64,000 bases of DNA. Origin: an uncultured Parafilimonas sp. GTDB taxonomy: Bacteria; Bacteroidota; Bacteroidia; Chitinophagales; Chitinophagaceae. Location of the stretch: positions 1 to 64,000 of the forward strand of contig CAIRZB010000037.1 of the NCBI GenBank assembly GCA_903882935.1. Reading direction: 5' to 3'. Shown in pieces: positions 50,928 through 55,395 of the stretch (its first letter is position 1; each line of letters opens with the position of its first letter). Under the pieces are notes generated by a model. That model made no database searches and was not told where the DNA came from. It saw only the letters and a list, made by a program, of their open reading frames with translations. A program made the translations under genes and the position numbers.

Positions 50928-50980
50928 AATGCCGTTTAGTAAATTAATCCAATTTGGATGATGGTTTACTAAACGGCATT
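50928..50980. terminator. Nested inverted repeat after the Usp gene
   Basis: The 16-bp perfect arms AATGCCGTTTAGTAAA (50928-50943) and their complement (50965-50980) enclose a second short inverted repeat ATCCAA/TTGGAT. No T tract follows on the plus strand. It is possibly a terminator, possibly a binding-site array. It is centred about 80 bp before the NrtR gene. Confidence 0.55.
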
Positions 50981-51036: not shown

Positions 51037-51723
51037 ATGGAACAAACTGGCATTCGGTTAACCGTTGACGCGGTGGTTTTTGGCTATGCCAAAACAGAGG
51101 GCGTTAGCATATTGCTGGTAAAACGCAAGTACGAGCCTTTTAAGAACACCTGGGCGTTGCCGGGCGGTTTTGTGCTGGAAGATGAATCGCTGGAGCAGGC
51201 CGTAACACGCGAACTGAAAGAAGAAACAGGCATAGCCGTAAATTACCTGGAGCAATTATACACCTTTGGGGAGCCCGCCAGAGACCCGCGGCAGCGCATT
51301 GTTTCAGTAGCCTATTTTGGCCTGATAAACAGCAGCATGTATAAAGAGTTGCATGCCGGCACCGATGCAGATAAAGCGGAATGGTTTAACATAACCAACC
51401 TGCCCCACATGGCCTTTGACCATACGGCTATTATACAGGCAGCCACTGCAAGGCTGCGCGCCAAAATACAATACCAACCCGTGGGTTTTGAACTGCTGGA
51501 TAAAAAATTCTCCTTTGCCGATTTGGAGAAGCTGTACACAGCACTGCTGGGCAGGGATATTGACAGGCGAAACTTTAGGAAGAAAATACTATCCTTCGAT
51601 TTTTTAGAGAAGCTGCCCGAGGTTACACACCCTGAAGGCCAGGGCAGGCCGAGCAACATGTTCCGTTTTAACAAAAAACGGTACGACCAACTGACTAAAA
51701 AAGGCTTTTTCTTCGAGATATAA
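51037..51723 (+). CDS. nrtR: NrtR-type Nudix transcriptional regulator of NAD metabolism
   Basis: The 228-residue protein starts at 51037 (MEQTGIRLTVDAVVFGY). It has an N-terminal Nudix domain (about 8-135) and a C-terminal winged-helix (about 150-228, FADLEKLYTALLGRDIDRRNFRKKI...GRPSNMFRFNKKRYDQL). It is the NrtR arrangement, which represses NAD biosynthesis genes and is relieved by ADP-ribose. The Nudix box is intact (G44, E50, REL 58-60, EE 62-63, G65), whereas many NrtR proteins have a degraded box, so hydrolase activity may be kept. Two perfect operators directly downstream (51727-51747 and 51780-51800) frame the nadM promoter, and nadM and nadV follow. Confidence 0.92.
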   Translation: MEQTGIRLTVDAVVFGYAKTEGVSILLVKRKYEPFKNTWALPGGFVLEDESLEQAVTRELKEETGIAVNYLEQLYTFGEPARDPRQRIVSVAYFGLINSSMYKELHAGTDADKAEWFNITNLPHMAFDHTAIIQAATARLRAKIQYQPVGFELLDKKFSFADLEKLYTALLGRDIDRRNFRKKILSFDFLEKLPEVTHPEGQGRPSNMFRFNKKRYDQLTKKGFFFEI

Positions 51724-51726
51724 TAT

Positions 51727-51747
51727 TTTGCGTAATTTATACGCAAA
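51727..51747. promoter_or_regulatory. NrtR operator 1 (perfect palindrome)
   Basis: TTTGCGTA and TACGCAAA are perfect inverted half-sites with a 5-bp spacer. It lies just beyond the nrtR stop and upstream of the nadM -33 element. It is centred 53 bp from operator 2, about five helical turns. Confidence 0.85.
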
Positions 51748-51751
51748 TAAA

Positions 51752-51783
51752 TTGGGAGATTGAAAATCATGCGCATATATTTG
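51752..51783 (+). promoter_or_regulatory. nadM promoter (TTG-N21-TATATTTG)
   Basis: TTG (51752-51754) and TATATTTG (51776-51783) match the Bacteroidota consensus with 21-bp spacing. The -7 element overlaps the first bases of operator 2, so a repressor bound there would block initiation. Confidence 0.75.
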
Positions 51784-51800
51784 CGTATAAATTACGCAAA
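51780..51800. promoter_or_regulatory. NrtR operator 2 (perfect palindrome)
   Basis: The same half-sites TTTGCGTA/TACGCAAA occur here, with the complementary spacer. It ends immediately before the nadM ATG at 51801 and overlaps the -7 element and the likely transcription start. Confidence 0.87.
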
Positions 51801-52697
51801 ATGAAAACAGGAGGCGTTATTATAGCAAGGTTTCAAACCCCGTTTTTGCACGAGGGGCATCACGACCTTATACAGCAGGTTAAAGCCAAGCACAACAAGG
51901 TTATCATAGTGCTGGGTTTTACTGCAGTAAAGCTAACCCCCCGCAACCCGTTTGACTTTTTCACCAGGGAGAAGATGATTAAAGAATCGTACCCAAGCAT
52001 CGTTGTGCTACCATTGGCAGACAACCCCAGCGATGCATACTGGTCGCACCAGTTGGATGGTCTGCTCGCAAATACCTTCCCGTCAGAAACGTTCGTGCTG
52101 TACGGAAGCAAGGATTCATTTATACCCTATTACCACGGAAGGCTTGCCACAGAAGAGTTGAAAGACAACATACAGTTTTCGGCAACAGAGCTACGGGAAA
52201 AACACAGTGATGATGTACTGGCCTCAAAAGAGTTTAGATTGGGCATTAATTACGCGGCACATAACCGCTACCCCATCGCCTACCCCACCGTGGATATTGC
52301 CGTATTGAGCAGCGACAAAAAACAAGTGCTGCTGGGCCGAAAACCCAATGCAGCGGAATGGCGCTTTCCCGGTGGTTTTGTTGACCCAACAGACGAAAGT
52401 CTTGAAGCAGCCGCAAAAAGAGAATTAACGGAGGAGTGTGGCAGCTTTGAAACATCGCCGTTCGTTTATCTAACTTCACACAAGATGAACGACTGGCGCT
52501 ATGTGCATGAAGTGGATAAAGTAATATCATCCCTGTTTACCACTACGCTGCTATATGGCAAACCCGAGGCAGGCGATGACCTTGAAGAGGTAAGGTGGTT
52601 TACTGTTGAACAAATACCCGCACTTATTGAAAGTGGCAATGCTGCCGAAGTACATACCCATTTTTTAACCGTATTATACAAAAGCTTACATAAGTAG
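51801..52697 (+). CDS. nadM: Bifunctional NMN adenylyltransferase / ADP-ribose Nudix hydrolase
   Basis: The 298-residue fusion has an N-terminal NMN adenylyltransferase-type nucleotidyltransferase (about 1-160). The HxGH motif is at 17-20 (FLHEGHHDL) and the SxTxLR-like motif at 127-132. A C-terminal Nudix domain follows, with an intact box at 191-214 (GGFVDPTDESLEAAAKREL, then TEECG). The first makes NAD from NMN and ATP; the second hydrolyses ADP-ribose, which links NAD synthesis to NAD breakdown products. ADP-ribose is also the NrtR effector, so the enzyme can reset the regulator. It is 5 bp upstream of nadV. Confidence 0.94.
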   Translation: MKTGGVIIARFQTPFLHEGHHDLIQQVKAKHNKVIIVLGFTAVKLTPRNPFDFFTREKMIKESYPSIVVLPLADNPSDAYWSHQLDGLLANTFPSETFVLYGSKDSFIPYYHGRLATEELKDNIQFSATELREKHSDDVLASKEFRLGINYAAHNRYPIAYPTVDIAVLSSDKKQVLLGRKPNAAEWRFPGGFVDPTDESLEAAAKRELTEECGSFETSPFVYLTSHKMNDWRYVHEVDKVISSLFTTTLLYGKPEAGDDLEEVRWFTVEQIPALIESGNAAEVHTHFLTVLYKSLHK

Positions 52698-52702
52698 ATT
52701 TT

Positions 52703-54115
52703 ATGCAAAACAACCTGATACTGCTTGCAGACGCTTATAAATATTCCCACCATAAATTATATACCCCCGGCACCGAAAAAGTATATTCCTATATGGAAAG
52801 CCGTGGTGGCATGTTTGAGGAAACAGTATTTTTTGGGCTGCAATATATTCTTAAAAAATACCTGGCCGGCGAGGTGATAACCAAGCCAAAAATTGAGGAG
52901 GCCAGTTATTACATGCAAAGCATTTTTGGCCGGCCCGATGTTTTTGAAGCAGCCAATTTTGAATACATCATCAAAAAATATGGCGGCCGGCTGCCAGTAA
53001 CCATTAAAGCGGTAAAGGAAGGCTTCGTAATACCCACCCACAATGTGTTGATGACCATTGAAAACAATGACTCAAAATGCTATTGGCTCACCAATTTTTT
53101 AGAAACCGTGCTTATGCAGGTTTGGTACCCTGTTACAGTGGCAACCCTCTCTGCCCAAATTAAACAAGTGGTACAAATGTATTTTGCCGAAACCGCAGAC
53201 GACAGCAGTGCTGCGGGTATTGATTTTGTGCTGAACGATTTTGGGTTCCGTGGTGTTAGCTCAGTGGAAAGCGCAGGCATAGGCGGCATGGCGCACCTGC
53301 TCAGTTTTAAAGGCAGCGACACCATCATAGCCAATGCCTACGCCAAAGAATACTACCATGCACAAACGGTACCCGGTGCATCCGTACCGGCAACTGAGCA
53401 CTCTGTAATGACTATGCGTGGCGAGGTCGGCGAGGAAGACATGTTCAGGCACATACTGCGCACCTACCCCACCGGTATCGTGGCCTGTGTGTCAGACTCG
53501 TACAACATCTTCCGCGCCTGTGCCGATTACTGGGGTACTGATTTAAAAGAAGAGATTCTAGGCAGGGACGGCACCTTGGTGATACGCCCCGACTCAGGTG
53601 ACCCTGCATTAACCTTACTCTCCGTGTTTGACATATTGCTTGATAAATTTGGCTATACCATCAACAGCAAAGGGTACAAAGTACTGCCGCCGCAAGTGAG
53701 GGTTATACAAGGCGACGGTATTAATTACGAAAGCATATTGCATATTTACCAAGTATTGAAGATGAATGGCATCTCTGCTGAAAACCTGGTGCTGGGCATG
53801 GGTGGTGCTTTATTACAGAAAGTTGATAGGGACACGCAAAAATTTGCGCTCAAATGCTCCTACGCCGAAATAAACGGGGTGCAGACAGATGTAAAAAAGA
53901 ACCCTATAGAATTAAATGGCCGTGGTGAGATAGAGTCTTCCTTTAAAAAATCAAAAGCAGGCAGACTGAAGCTGATACAAACCAACGGCCTTTTTGAAAC
54001 CGTTCGTGAAGACGCTGCACCGGCTGCAGAAGACATACTACAAACGGTTTTTGAAAACGGCGAGGTGGTGCAGGAGTATGGTTTTGAAGAGATACAGGAG
54101 AGGTTGAGAGGGTGA
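52703..54115 (+). CDS. nadV: Nicotinamide phosphoribosyltransferase
   Basis: The 470-residue NAMPT converts nicotinamide and PRPP to NMN, the substrate of the NadM enzyme encoded just upstream. Family features include DAYKYSHHKLYTPGTEKVYSYMESR at the N-terminus and VNDFGFRGVSSVESAGIGG-type PRPP-binding loop (read here as LNDFGFRGVSS). The catalytic-His loop is PATEHSVMT, and the phosphoribosyl-binding signature GRDGTLVIRPDSGDP comes before the C-terminal FKKSKAGRL. It is the last gene of the nrtR-nadM-nadV salvage operon, ended by the terminator at 54155-54186. Confidence 0.96.
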   Translation: MQNNLILLADAYKYSHHKLYTPGTEKVYSYMESRGGMFEETVFFGLQYILKKYLAGEVITKPKIEEASYYMQSIFGRPDVFEAANFEYIIKKYGGRLPVTIKAVKEGFVIPTHNVLMTIENNDSKCYWLTNFLETVLMQVWYPVTVATLSAQIKQVVQMYFAETADDSSAAGIDFVLNDFGFRGVSSVESAGIGGMAHLLSFKGSDTIIANAYAKEYYHAQTVPGASVPATEHSVMTMRGEVGEEDMFRHILRTYPTGIVACVSDSYNIFRACADYWGTDLKEEILGRDGTLVIRPDSGDPALTLLSVFDILLDKFGYTINSKGYKVLPPQVRVIQGDGINYESILHIYQVLKMNGISAENLVLGMGGALLQKVDRDTQKFALKCSYAEINGVQTDVKKNPIELNGRGEIESSFKKSKAGRLKLIQTNGLFETVREDAAPAAEDILQTVFENGEVVQEYGFEEIQERLRG

Positions 54116-54154
54116 CCATTCAATGCAAGCCACCGCACCCTATACCCCACGCAG

Positions 54155-54186
54155 CAAACACGCGCTGGCTATAAGCGCGTTTTTTG
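54155..54186 (+). terminator. Terminator of the NAD salvage operon
   Basis: ACGCGCT and AGCGCGT form a hairpin (54160-54180) followed by T6. The surrounding GCAAA/TTTTGC bases extend the pairing. Confidence 0.82.
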
Positions 54187-54299
54187 CTAAGATGGCCTGG
54201 GCTGTGATGCCCTTTAAAGAAGAGCCAACCATCTACACAAAAACCAAATTGCGGCTGAAGCAATAACCATGCGCATTTGGGTTTACGTATAAAGCGATG

Positions 54300-54450
54300 G
54301 CTTTTACAGGATTTGTGAAGACACAAATCCGGGCGAAAACCCACAGGTTGCCCGCCGGTAAGGCGTTTAAACGAGTGCCCCAACTAATAAGGAGTTATTG
54401 GGACAAACCGATTATCGGTTTGCCTATACAATAACCCCTTTTCAAAAAGC
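54300..54450 (+). ncRNA. Candidate multi-branched structured RNA upstream of tauE
   Basis: A closing helix GCTTTT (54300-54305) / AAAAGC (54445-54450) encloses three hairpins. These are a perfect 9-bp stem GGATTTGTG/CACAAATCC with AAGA loop (54309-54330); CGGGC/GCCCG with inner AACC/GGTT and a CACA loop (54330-54354); and a long arm GGAGTTATTG/CAATAACCCC with an inner perfect CAAACCGA/TCGGTTTG (54391-54438). The total is about 150 nt. The element could be a riboswitch leader of the downstream transporter or an independent RNA. I do not match it to a known class. Confidence 0.5.
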
Positions 54451-54570
54451 GAGGTAGTCTAAATAGCGGAGAGTCATCAGTGGGTCCATAAAATTAAAGG
54501 CAAACTAAATAAAGCATCACCAACCGCCTATCCTAACCACAAAAAAGCCATCTTTGCCATGTAATACTAC

Positions 54571-55395
54571 ATGGATAATATTTTTTTACTCATCGTTATC
54601 GGCTTCTCCATTGGCACGTTGGGCACCCTCATTGGCGCGGGCGGTGGTTTTATACTGGTGCCGGTACTAATTTTGGCTTACCCATCGCTAAGCCCTGAGC
54701 AAATAACGGCCATATCGCTGGCCACGGTGTTTTTCAACGCATTTTCTGGCAGCATTGCCTATGCCCGCGCAAAAAGAATTGACTATAAGGCCGGCTTGCA
54801 GTTTTTCCTCTTCACCATACCAGGTTCGGTGTTGGGGGTATACATCACCAAACACATCAGCTCAAAAATATTCACACTGTTTTTTGGCTTGCTGCTCATT
54901 TTGTTGTCGGCTGTGTTGTTCTTCCGTAAAAAAGATCCGGCAGTGCCAACAACACAAGGCGGCGGGCTGTCAAAAACCCACCACCAACTAACCGACAAAG
55001 ACGGCGTGGTGTACGATTATTACTACAATAAATACATCGGCTGGCTCATAAGTTTTGTGGTTGGTTTTATATCGCCCATATTGGGCATTGGCGGCGGCAT
55101 TATACATGTGCCTGCCATGGTTAACTGGCTGGGCTTTCCAGTGCATATTGCCACGGCCACCTCACATTTTATATTGGCGGCCATGTCGTTGGTAAGTGTT
55201 ATCGTGCATTGGGCAGAAGGCAATTATAACTCGGCTTACATTCTCCGTATGGTGCTAGGCATCGGCCTTGGGGTTGTGGCCGGTGCCCAACTGGGTGCCT
55301 ACCTTTCCCACAAACTTAAAGCCACGGTTATTATCAAGGCGCTGGCGGTGGCGTTGGGCCTTGTGGGCATAAGGCTGCTGCTGGGTTTGTTGTAA
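54571..55395 (+). CDS. TauE/SafE family membrane transporter
   Basis: The 274-residue integral membrane protein has about eight transmembrane helices in two repeats. The first begins IGFSIGTLGTLIGAGGGFILVPVL, the second FVVGFISPILGIGGGIIHVPAM. Each bears the GxGGGxxxVP motif of the sulfite-exporter (TauE/SafE, DUF81) family. An internal cytosolic loop with many charged residues joins them (about 115-150). The family exports sulfite, sulfoacetate or related anions; the substrate here is unknown. It is preceded by the structured element at 54300-54450 and a putative promoter gap. Confidence 0.92.
   Translation: MDNIFLLIVIGFSIGTLGTLIGAGGGFILVPVLILAYPSLSPEQITAISLATVFFNAFSGSIAYARAKRIDYKAGLQFFLFTIPGSVLGVYITKHISSKIFTLFFGLLLILLSAVLFFRKKDPAVPTTQGGGLSKTHHQLTDKDGVVYDYYYNKYIGWLISFVVGFISPILGIGGGIIHVPAMVNWLGFPVHIATATSHFILAAMSLVSVIVHWAEGNYNSAYILRMVLGIGLGVVAGAQLGAYLSHKLKATVIIKALAVALGLVGIRLLLGLL

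Follow-up and report, generated by a model that had tools for sequence, protein, structure and literature searches.

In Shewanella oneidensis, Synechocystis, Mycobacterium smegmatis and Streptococcus, NrtR is reported to be a repressor of NAD genes that combines a Nudix domain with a winged helix, and ADP-ribose is its reported anti-repressor (PMC4666351, PMC6800001, PMC12735969). ADP-ribose is described as releasing the M. smegmatis and S. sobrinus proteins from DNA (PMC6800001, PMC12735969), whereas NdnR of Corynebacterium, a member of the same family, is described as responding to NAD instead (PMC4666351, PMC6800001). NrtR proteins have been presented as Nudix enzymes turned sensors without catalysis. 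The Nudix motif is reported to be impaired in the NrtR regulators of NAD metabolism (PMC4666351), a typical but not a defining trait of the family, and hydrolysis is given as not detectable for the M. smegmatis and S. sobrinus proteins (PMC6800001, PMC12735969). According to PMC12735969, the NrtR of Streptococcus suis regained catalytic activity when its motif was repaired, but according to PMC6800001 the M. smegmatis protein did not. The NrtR encoded in the window, i.e., the whole stretch of 64,000 nucleotides analyzed here, differs from these regulators in that its motif is intact, its target is nadM-nadV, and its two putative operators are in register with a Bacteroidota promoter.

Another family member, BtAraR of Bacteroides thetaiotaomicron, has the same fold as the window protein (5bs6) and likewise has a tandem pair of 21-bp sites in front of the operon that it controls, 3 bp or 42 bp apart depending on the genome (PMC4666351). 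Unlike the window NrtR, it is reported to respond to L-arabinose, to control sugar genes and to have lost two or three of the Nudix glutamates (PMC4666351). A MutT/nudix family protein of Enterococcus faecalis, 2FML, is an NrtR-like match over both domains. It comes from a different phylum and its entry title names no function, but it keeps the box glutamates, and intact boxes are thus not confined to Bacteroidota.

The enzymes of the locus have counterparts as well. The bifunctional NadM-Nudix NMN adenylyltransferases/ADP-ribose pyrophosphatases (2qjo, 2qjt) have the same layout and the same HxGH and REUXEE residues as the window NadM, which is about 40-55 residues shorter and has a one-residue insertion in the Nudix loop. 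The phage NadV plus NadM pathway follows the same two-step route from nicotinamide to NAD, and NadV is reported to accompany NadM in every phage that has the latter (PMC9503650). In contrast to the phage genes, the window pair lies in a bacterial genome and is placed under putative NrtR operators.

Anatomy of the NAD salvage locus

The features of the locus are collected in Table 1. The first-pass annotation had placed the regulator in the NrtR family, and Pfam domains and structural matches agree on this assignment. An AlphaFold2 model of the protein (mean pLDDT 85.9) gave as best PDB matches, in this order, BtAraR (TM 0.82, 37% identity), 2FML and SoNrtR, and its superposition on the ADP-ribose-bound Nudix domain of SoNrtR covered 139 columns at 1.8 A. 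By sequence the protein is nearer AraR than SoNrtR. Its score against the NCBIfam NrtR equivalog NF050029 (136.8 bits) is far below the cut-off of 400, which is an equivalog naming threshold and does not define the NrtR family.

Table 1. Features of the nrtR-nadM-nadV locus (window coordinates)
Feature	Position	Strand	Description
nrtR	51037..51723	+	228 aa, Nudix and NrtR winged-helix domains; Pfam NUDIX and NrtR_WHD both above cut-off
NrtR Nudix box codons, G44 to I66	51166..51234	+	residues G44, E50, R58, E59, E62, E63, G65
Operator 1, upstream (putative), TTTGCGTA-ATTTA-TACGCAAA	51727..51747	.	perfect palindrome; counterpart site in relatives
-33 element (putative)	51751..51754	+	reads ATTG in the window and TTTG in the majority of relatives with the long spacing
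-7 element (putative), TATATTTG	51776..51783	+	matches TAnnTTTG; its TTTG forms the first bases of operator 2
Operator 2, downstream (putative), TTTGCGTA-TAAAT-TACGCAAA	51780..51800	.	perfect palindrome; adjoins the nadM ATG
nadM	51801..52697	+	298 aa, NMN adenylyltransferase-like and Nudix domains
NadM Nudix motif codons, G191 to G214	52371..52442	+	from the alignment of relatives
nadV	52703..54115	+	470 aa, phosphoribosyltransferase of nicotinamide (NAMPT) type

In NadM, Pfam detects NUDIX alone and gave no match for a nucleotidyltransferase domain. The adenylyltransferase assignment rests on a weak match to the bifunctional chain 2qjt, the best in the PDB (E 3.3e-8), on matches to NCBIfam equivalog models far below threshold (best 50.6 bits, cut-off 449), and on the conserved HxGH residues. 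NadV has the Pfam domains NAMPT_N and NAPRTase and scores above cut-off for NCBIfam NF006629; as that model is named nicotinate phosphoribosyltransferase, it is from NAMPT_N that we infer nicotinamide as the substrate. No Rfam family matched in the 64,000-nt window at gathering scores, and none matched in 54100-54650 up to E 1. By eye, an inverted repeat, ATGCCGTTTAGTAAA ... TTTACTAAACGGCAT (50929-50979), lies between a universal stress protein gene and nrtR and is perhaps a terminator.

The annotation had described two identical palindromes framing the nadM promoter. Their coordinates and arms stood, but the 5-bp centers differ, the two 21-mers being exact reverse complements of one another. 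Their center-to-center distance of 53 bp, the TTG-N21-TATATTTG sequence between them, and the position of operator 2, next to the nadM ATG and overlapping the -7 element, were all as claimed. The annotation had taken many unrelated copies of the palindrome as grounds for refutation, and these were not found. The host genome (5,535,551 bases in 114 contigs, 99.41 percent complete), searched throughout, contains the palindrome with at most one mismatch at the two window sites only. With up to three mismatches the window has 3 matches, both perfect sites counted, against 0.77 expected, and the genome has 66 against 69 for a reversed control pattern, showing that such loose matches are noise. The next-best sites, with two mismatches, fall inside an ORF that looks by eye like a histidine kinase gene and between genes elsewhere, and this whole-genome palindrome search yielded no convincing further member of the regulon.

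A perfect palindrome, ATTGCGTAATTATTACGCAAT, adjoins an ATG in an intergenic position of the window genome (C100:32661-32681 of G000, L004). Near-copies of it were found at other genes in two genus-mates, and no link to NAD genes was seen by eye.

Conservation across Bacteroidota

We surveyed NadM relatives at two depths. Of 147 genomes of the family, 13 have a nadM ortholog at an E of 1e-30 or less, and the window genome is one of these 13. A wide scan with one genome per species (84,980 species) gave 139 relatives, of which the best 80, corresponding to 79 distinct loci, were taken. The counts below, marked "best 80 of 139", refer to 68 distinct loci of the close NadM type from the family scan and these 79 loci together, which were selected by nadM and not by nrtR, and among which near-copies remain. 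Left out were L036 and L037 (duplicates of L076 and L066), L127 and L125, the latter a distant locus (insufficient upstream sequence), L124 (207 bases upstream only), L131-L141 (fragments or other Nudix genes) and eight distant NadM loci.

All 68 close nadM loci (best 80 of 139), all in Bacteroidota, have operator 2 with at most one mismatch. At L098, nadM is preceded by the two operators at distances of 675 and 729 bases; in the 67 others, operator 2 matches TTTGYGTN7ACRCAAA exactly (63 loci) or with one mismatch (four loci). In 63 of the 67 operator loci (best 80 of 139), nrtR is upstream on the same strand and nadV downstream; for three of the remaining four (L040, L041, L044), nrtR is found elsewhere in the genome. 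The eight distant NadM loci, searched whole, have no site with one mismatch or fewer (0/8), and neither nrtR nor nadV was seen there. The operators are conserved together with nadM-nadV across Bacteroidota. With nrtR they make up a regulatory unit that is genuine and conserved, and its regulator belongs to a known family. Among the titles and abstracts listed in our literature searches, none dealt with the control of nadM-nadV by NrtR in Bacteroidota; an earlier listing is possible (Rodionov 2008, RegPrecise).

The window nrtR is on a long branch of the NrtR tree. Two genus-mates, which are incomplete (63 and 69 percent), have no nadM match, and their best nrtR match has 43 percent identity. 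Transfer into the window's lineage is possible, as is loss, or missing sequence, in the genus-mates. In several Chitinophagaceae (L036, L037, L038, L042, L045) a similar gene, recognized by eye, is divergent from nrtR; it is absent beside the window nrtR, and one partial copy of it had no Pfam match.

Operator positions in the putative promoter

The distance between the operators falls into two classes. Among the 68 loci (best 80 of 139), it is 50-54 bp in 51 (50 bp in 5, 51 in 3, 52 in 21, 53 in 16, and 54 in 6, L098 included) and 27-28 bp in 15 (27 bp in 13, 28 in 2). One further locus, L110, has by eye a decayed operator 1 at 27 bp, and L101 has no recognizable operator 1. Placed on the NrtR tree, the class label requires two changes. 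Without L098, L101 and L110, operator 2 is perfect in 28 of 30 long-class loci outside the Chitinophaga-type clade defined below, in all 20 inside it and in 13 of 15 short-class loci. Operator 1 is imperfect at most loci, being perfect in 16/30, 0/20 and 1/15, respectively.

Bacteroidota promoters are reported to have TAnnTTTG at -7 and TTTG near -33 (PMC7366714, PMC12632263), although PMC7366714 describes the -33 motif as not found in Flavobacterium johnsoniae. A TAnnTTTG whose TTTG is shared with operator 2 is present at 63 of 67 loci, the window included (best 80 of 139). From this element, the nadM start site would be at about 51789. Of 50 long-class loci (best 80 of 139), 39 have a TTTG at a distance of 27-30 bases before operator 2; the rest of the range from -50 to -5 contains ten other TTTG matches, of which four belong to operator 1. 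Both TTTG and NTTG are missing from the -33 position in five of the 50, and in the 45 loci with such an element the gap between it and operator 1 is 1-5 bp. In the short class, the TTTG that opens operator 1 is itself at -27 or -28 in 15/15 loci, which is the -33 position.

As judged from these positions, the short class has one operator on each core promoter position, and the long class has operator 1 just upstream of the putative -33 element. Our reading is that operator 2 would be the anchor that blocks the polymerase, with operator 1 able to work from either of two places. The layout is an example of an operator embedded in the TTTG elements of a Bacteroidota promoter and of a second site with two alternative positions.

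The Nudix boxes of the regulator and the enzyme

The annotation had considered both Nudix boxes intact. For NrtR this was confirmed, as G44, E50, R58, E59, E62, E63 and G65 fit GX5EX7REUXEEXGU. NadM likewise has a complete catalytic helix, RELTEECG. Its box as a whole departs from the canonical form, since an additional residue separates the glycine from the first glutamate, that glutamate is not conserved among 13 aligned proteins, and the box ends in Ser. In the alignment, all 68 close relatives (best 80 of 139) have the HxGH and REUXEE residues.

We aligned 67 NrtR orthologs, 62 from the surveyed loci, the window's included, and five from other genome searches. R58, E59, E62 and E63 are all present in 47 of them, two of which have Ser for G65. 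In the other 20, which we call the Chitinophaga-type clade, E62 alone of the four differs, being T in 19 and D in one. The 47 share 66 invariant columns, and E62 and F160 are the only two of these that differ in every one of the 20. In a quick tree that carries long-branch warnings, the window's branch among them, the 20 form one clade (SH-aLRT 100), as do all 67 (SH-aLRT 98). The full set of four residues occurs in none of 18 NrtR-family paralogs, of which 17 are from the window genome and two genus-mates and one from G008. All 20 Chitinophaga-type loci combine the loss of E62 with an imperfect operator 1, compared with a perfect one in 16/30 of the other long-class loci; because the 20 loci represent a single clade, we draw no causal conclusion from this coincidence.

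Given the published record on the motif, a natural NrtR with an intact box is a fair candidate for an active enzyme. The window NrtR is best read as a variant of the family, a repressor that may hydrolyze its own inducer, and the suggestion that both NrtR and NadM hydrolyze the inducer is a prediction. As E62 is replaced in 20 of 67 orthologs, hydrolysis by NrtR is probably not essential everywhere, and it would probably be dispensable in that clade. A large clade with all of the residues, beside a clade that lacks a single one, allows a direct test of which came first, the enzyme and then the sensor or both at once.

Proposed circuit and alternatives

We give a probability of about 0.7 to the reading in which an NrtR-type repressor has nadM-nadV as its dedicated target, blocks the promoter at two operators and is released by ADP-ribose. 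The anatomy of the locus, its conservation, its usually exclusive target and the conserved catalytic residues are observations; binding, repression, ADP-ribose as the effector and hydrolysis are the steps that we infer from them. One NrtR dimer would bind each 21-bp palindrome. The dimer on operator 2, the anchor that has its TTTG in common with the -7 element, would cover the -7 region and the start site, and operator 1 would be auxiliary, located here just upstream of -33 and in other lineages on the -33 position. Repression would then occur by a block of RNA polymerase, possibly with help from dimer-dimer contacts. Upon NAD breakdown, ADP-ribose would build up, bind the Nudix domain of NrtR and lift repression. 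The other breakdown product, nicotinamide, would be the substrate of NadV, and NadM would complete NAD. Hydrolysis of ADP-ribose by the Nudix domain of NadM, and possibly by that of NrtR, would terminate the signal.

Gene context is what points to ADP-ribose as the likely effector of the window protein. Against this effector, by our own count, the three sugar-binding residues reported for BtAraR (PMC4666351) align with its R30, R82 and H129; its greater sequence similarity to AraR and the reported response of NdnR to NAD also speak against it. TIR, SIR2 and SEFIR effectors are described as splitting NAD into nicotinamide and ADP-ribose (PMC12774641), and NadV plus NadM as regenerating NAD from nicotinamide (PMC9503650). 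If ADP-ribose is the effector, both cleavage products would feed the circuit, one opening the operon and the other serving as its substrate.

The annotation had inferred cooperative or looped repression. In such a model, dimers on the two operators would touch across about five helical turns and trap the promoter. The 50-54 bp spacing of 51 of the 68 loci (best 80 of 139) agrees with this, and three operator pairs away from nadM recur at 50, 51 and 52 bp; these pairs, however, may be copies of the nadM promoter. Looping over five turns is compatible with the long class only; in 15 loci the operators occupy the -33 and -7 positions and are 27-28 bp, or some two and a half turns, apart. Given this second, equally regular class, five-turn looping cannot be the general mechanism, and we set it aside as a required one. 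Furthermore, with operator 1 at 1-5 bp from the -33 element in 45 loci, promoter geometry alone could set the spacing. In a co-variation test the two parts of the spacing correlated at -0.38, a value that is partly mechanical and favors neither reading. The tandem BtAraR sites are reported at 3 bp or 42 bp (PMC4666351). We regard looping as unlikely; promoter occlusion would be enough to explain the layout. The palindrome arms might instead act in RNA, by pairing as a long hairpin between nrtR and nadM. The 51721-51803 segment does fold at -35.2 kcal/mol (z -8.8), but two copies of a palindrome fold together anyway. Operator 1 is the reverse complement of operator 2 in just 2 of 67 loci (best 80 of 139), the spacing differs between classes, single operators exist, and nrtR may be distant. 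We rejected the hairpin on these grounds, and it seems to us scarcely credible.

As for the regulator, BtAraR being the closest solved structure could mean that a sugar-responsive AraR/XylR-type protein adjoins nadM by chance. This is very improbable: in the quick tree all 67 nadM-linked orthologs group together to the exclusion of the 18 paralogs (SH-aLRT 98), their Nudix boxes differ from those of the paralogs, and the operator occurs in the window genome only at nadM-nadV. The traits of the AraR/XylR branch, degenerate Nudix glutamates and a sugar operon as target, were not found for the window NrtR. A much closer contender, to which we give slightly less than even odds, is that the intact box serves metal-dependent effector binding and that NrtR is a pure sensor without hydrolysis. 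The characterized NrtR proteins are reported to be inactive (PMC4666351, PMC6800001, PMC12735969), and the 20 orthologs with E62 replaced still have operator 2 and the operon. Nevertheless, regulators with broken boxes are reported still to respond to ADP-ribose (PMC6800001, PMC12735969), indicating that the glutamates are not needed for sensing. R58, E59, E62 and E63 are invariant in 47 orthologs, whereas E59, E62 and E63 vary in paralogs. The restoration experiments are divided, the box having revived the S. suis NrtR (PMC12735969) and not the mycobacterial protein (PMC6800001).

If the repressor circuit does respond to ADP-ribose, it would represent an inducible NAD-repair pathway in environmental bacteria, with a bearing on NAD-depleting toxins and phage defense. 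A broader generalization is tentative, and we consider it rather less probable than not. In most of the surveyed Bacteroidota that have NrtR, the protein would be both the nadM-nadV repressor and an ADP-ribose hydrolase, making a self-resetting switch. The operon would answer NAD cleavage, for example by toxins or phage-defense NADases, with one product as signal and the other as substrate, and the Chitinophaga-type clade would be a natural loss of the enzyme activity of the repressor with the Nudix core of NadM kept.

Operator sites at other genes

We scanned 37 genomes for the exact degenerate motif: all 13 members of the family that have nadM, and a further 24 that we chose manually from the wide-scan loci. 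The motif is present only at nadM in 26 of them and has further copies in nine; two have no exact copy. In all 13 family genomes with nadM, nadA and nadD also score above cut-off, and nadM-nadV is thus an additional NAD route.

Twelve stretches with further copies were read. In three of them the sites are paired, at distances of 52, 50 and 51 bp, and the second site of the third pair has one mismatch; as noted above, they may be copies of the nadM promoter. The 50-bp pair, in Paraflavitalea pollutisoli (L171:2414-2484), adjoins the ATG of a nucleoside 2-deoxyribosyltransferase-like gene. In Niastella yeongjuensis, a single site (L172:2479) overlaps a -7-like element, TAATTTTG, before a HEPN-RES gene (L172:1041-2447, minus strand); RES domains degrade NAD. 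Chryseolinea lacunae has a single site before nrtR itself, and two more single sites are near genes without an evident NAD link.

Near-identical sites occur in Chitinophaga and a relative (L176:2142, L174:2132, L177:1822, L178:2044, L173:2019). They are followed by a microbial PARG gene, by a second NrtR-family gene, or by an ORF without a Pfam match and then DUF4291. The second NrtR-family gene, found after the site in three genomes, has a degenerate Nudix box (Pfam was run on two). These sites could represent an ADP-ribose regulon of this second NrtR in Chitinophaga and its relative.
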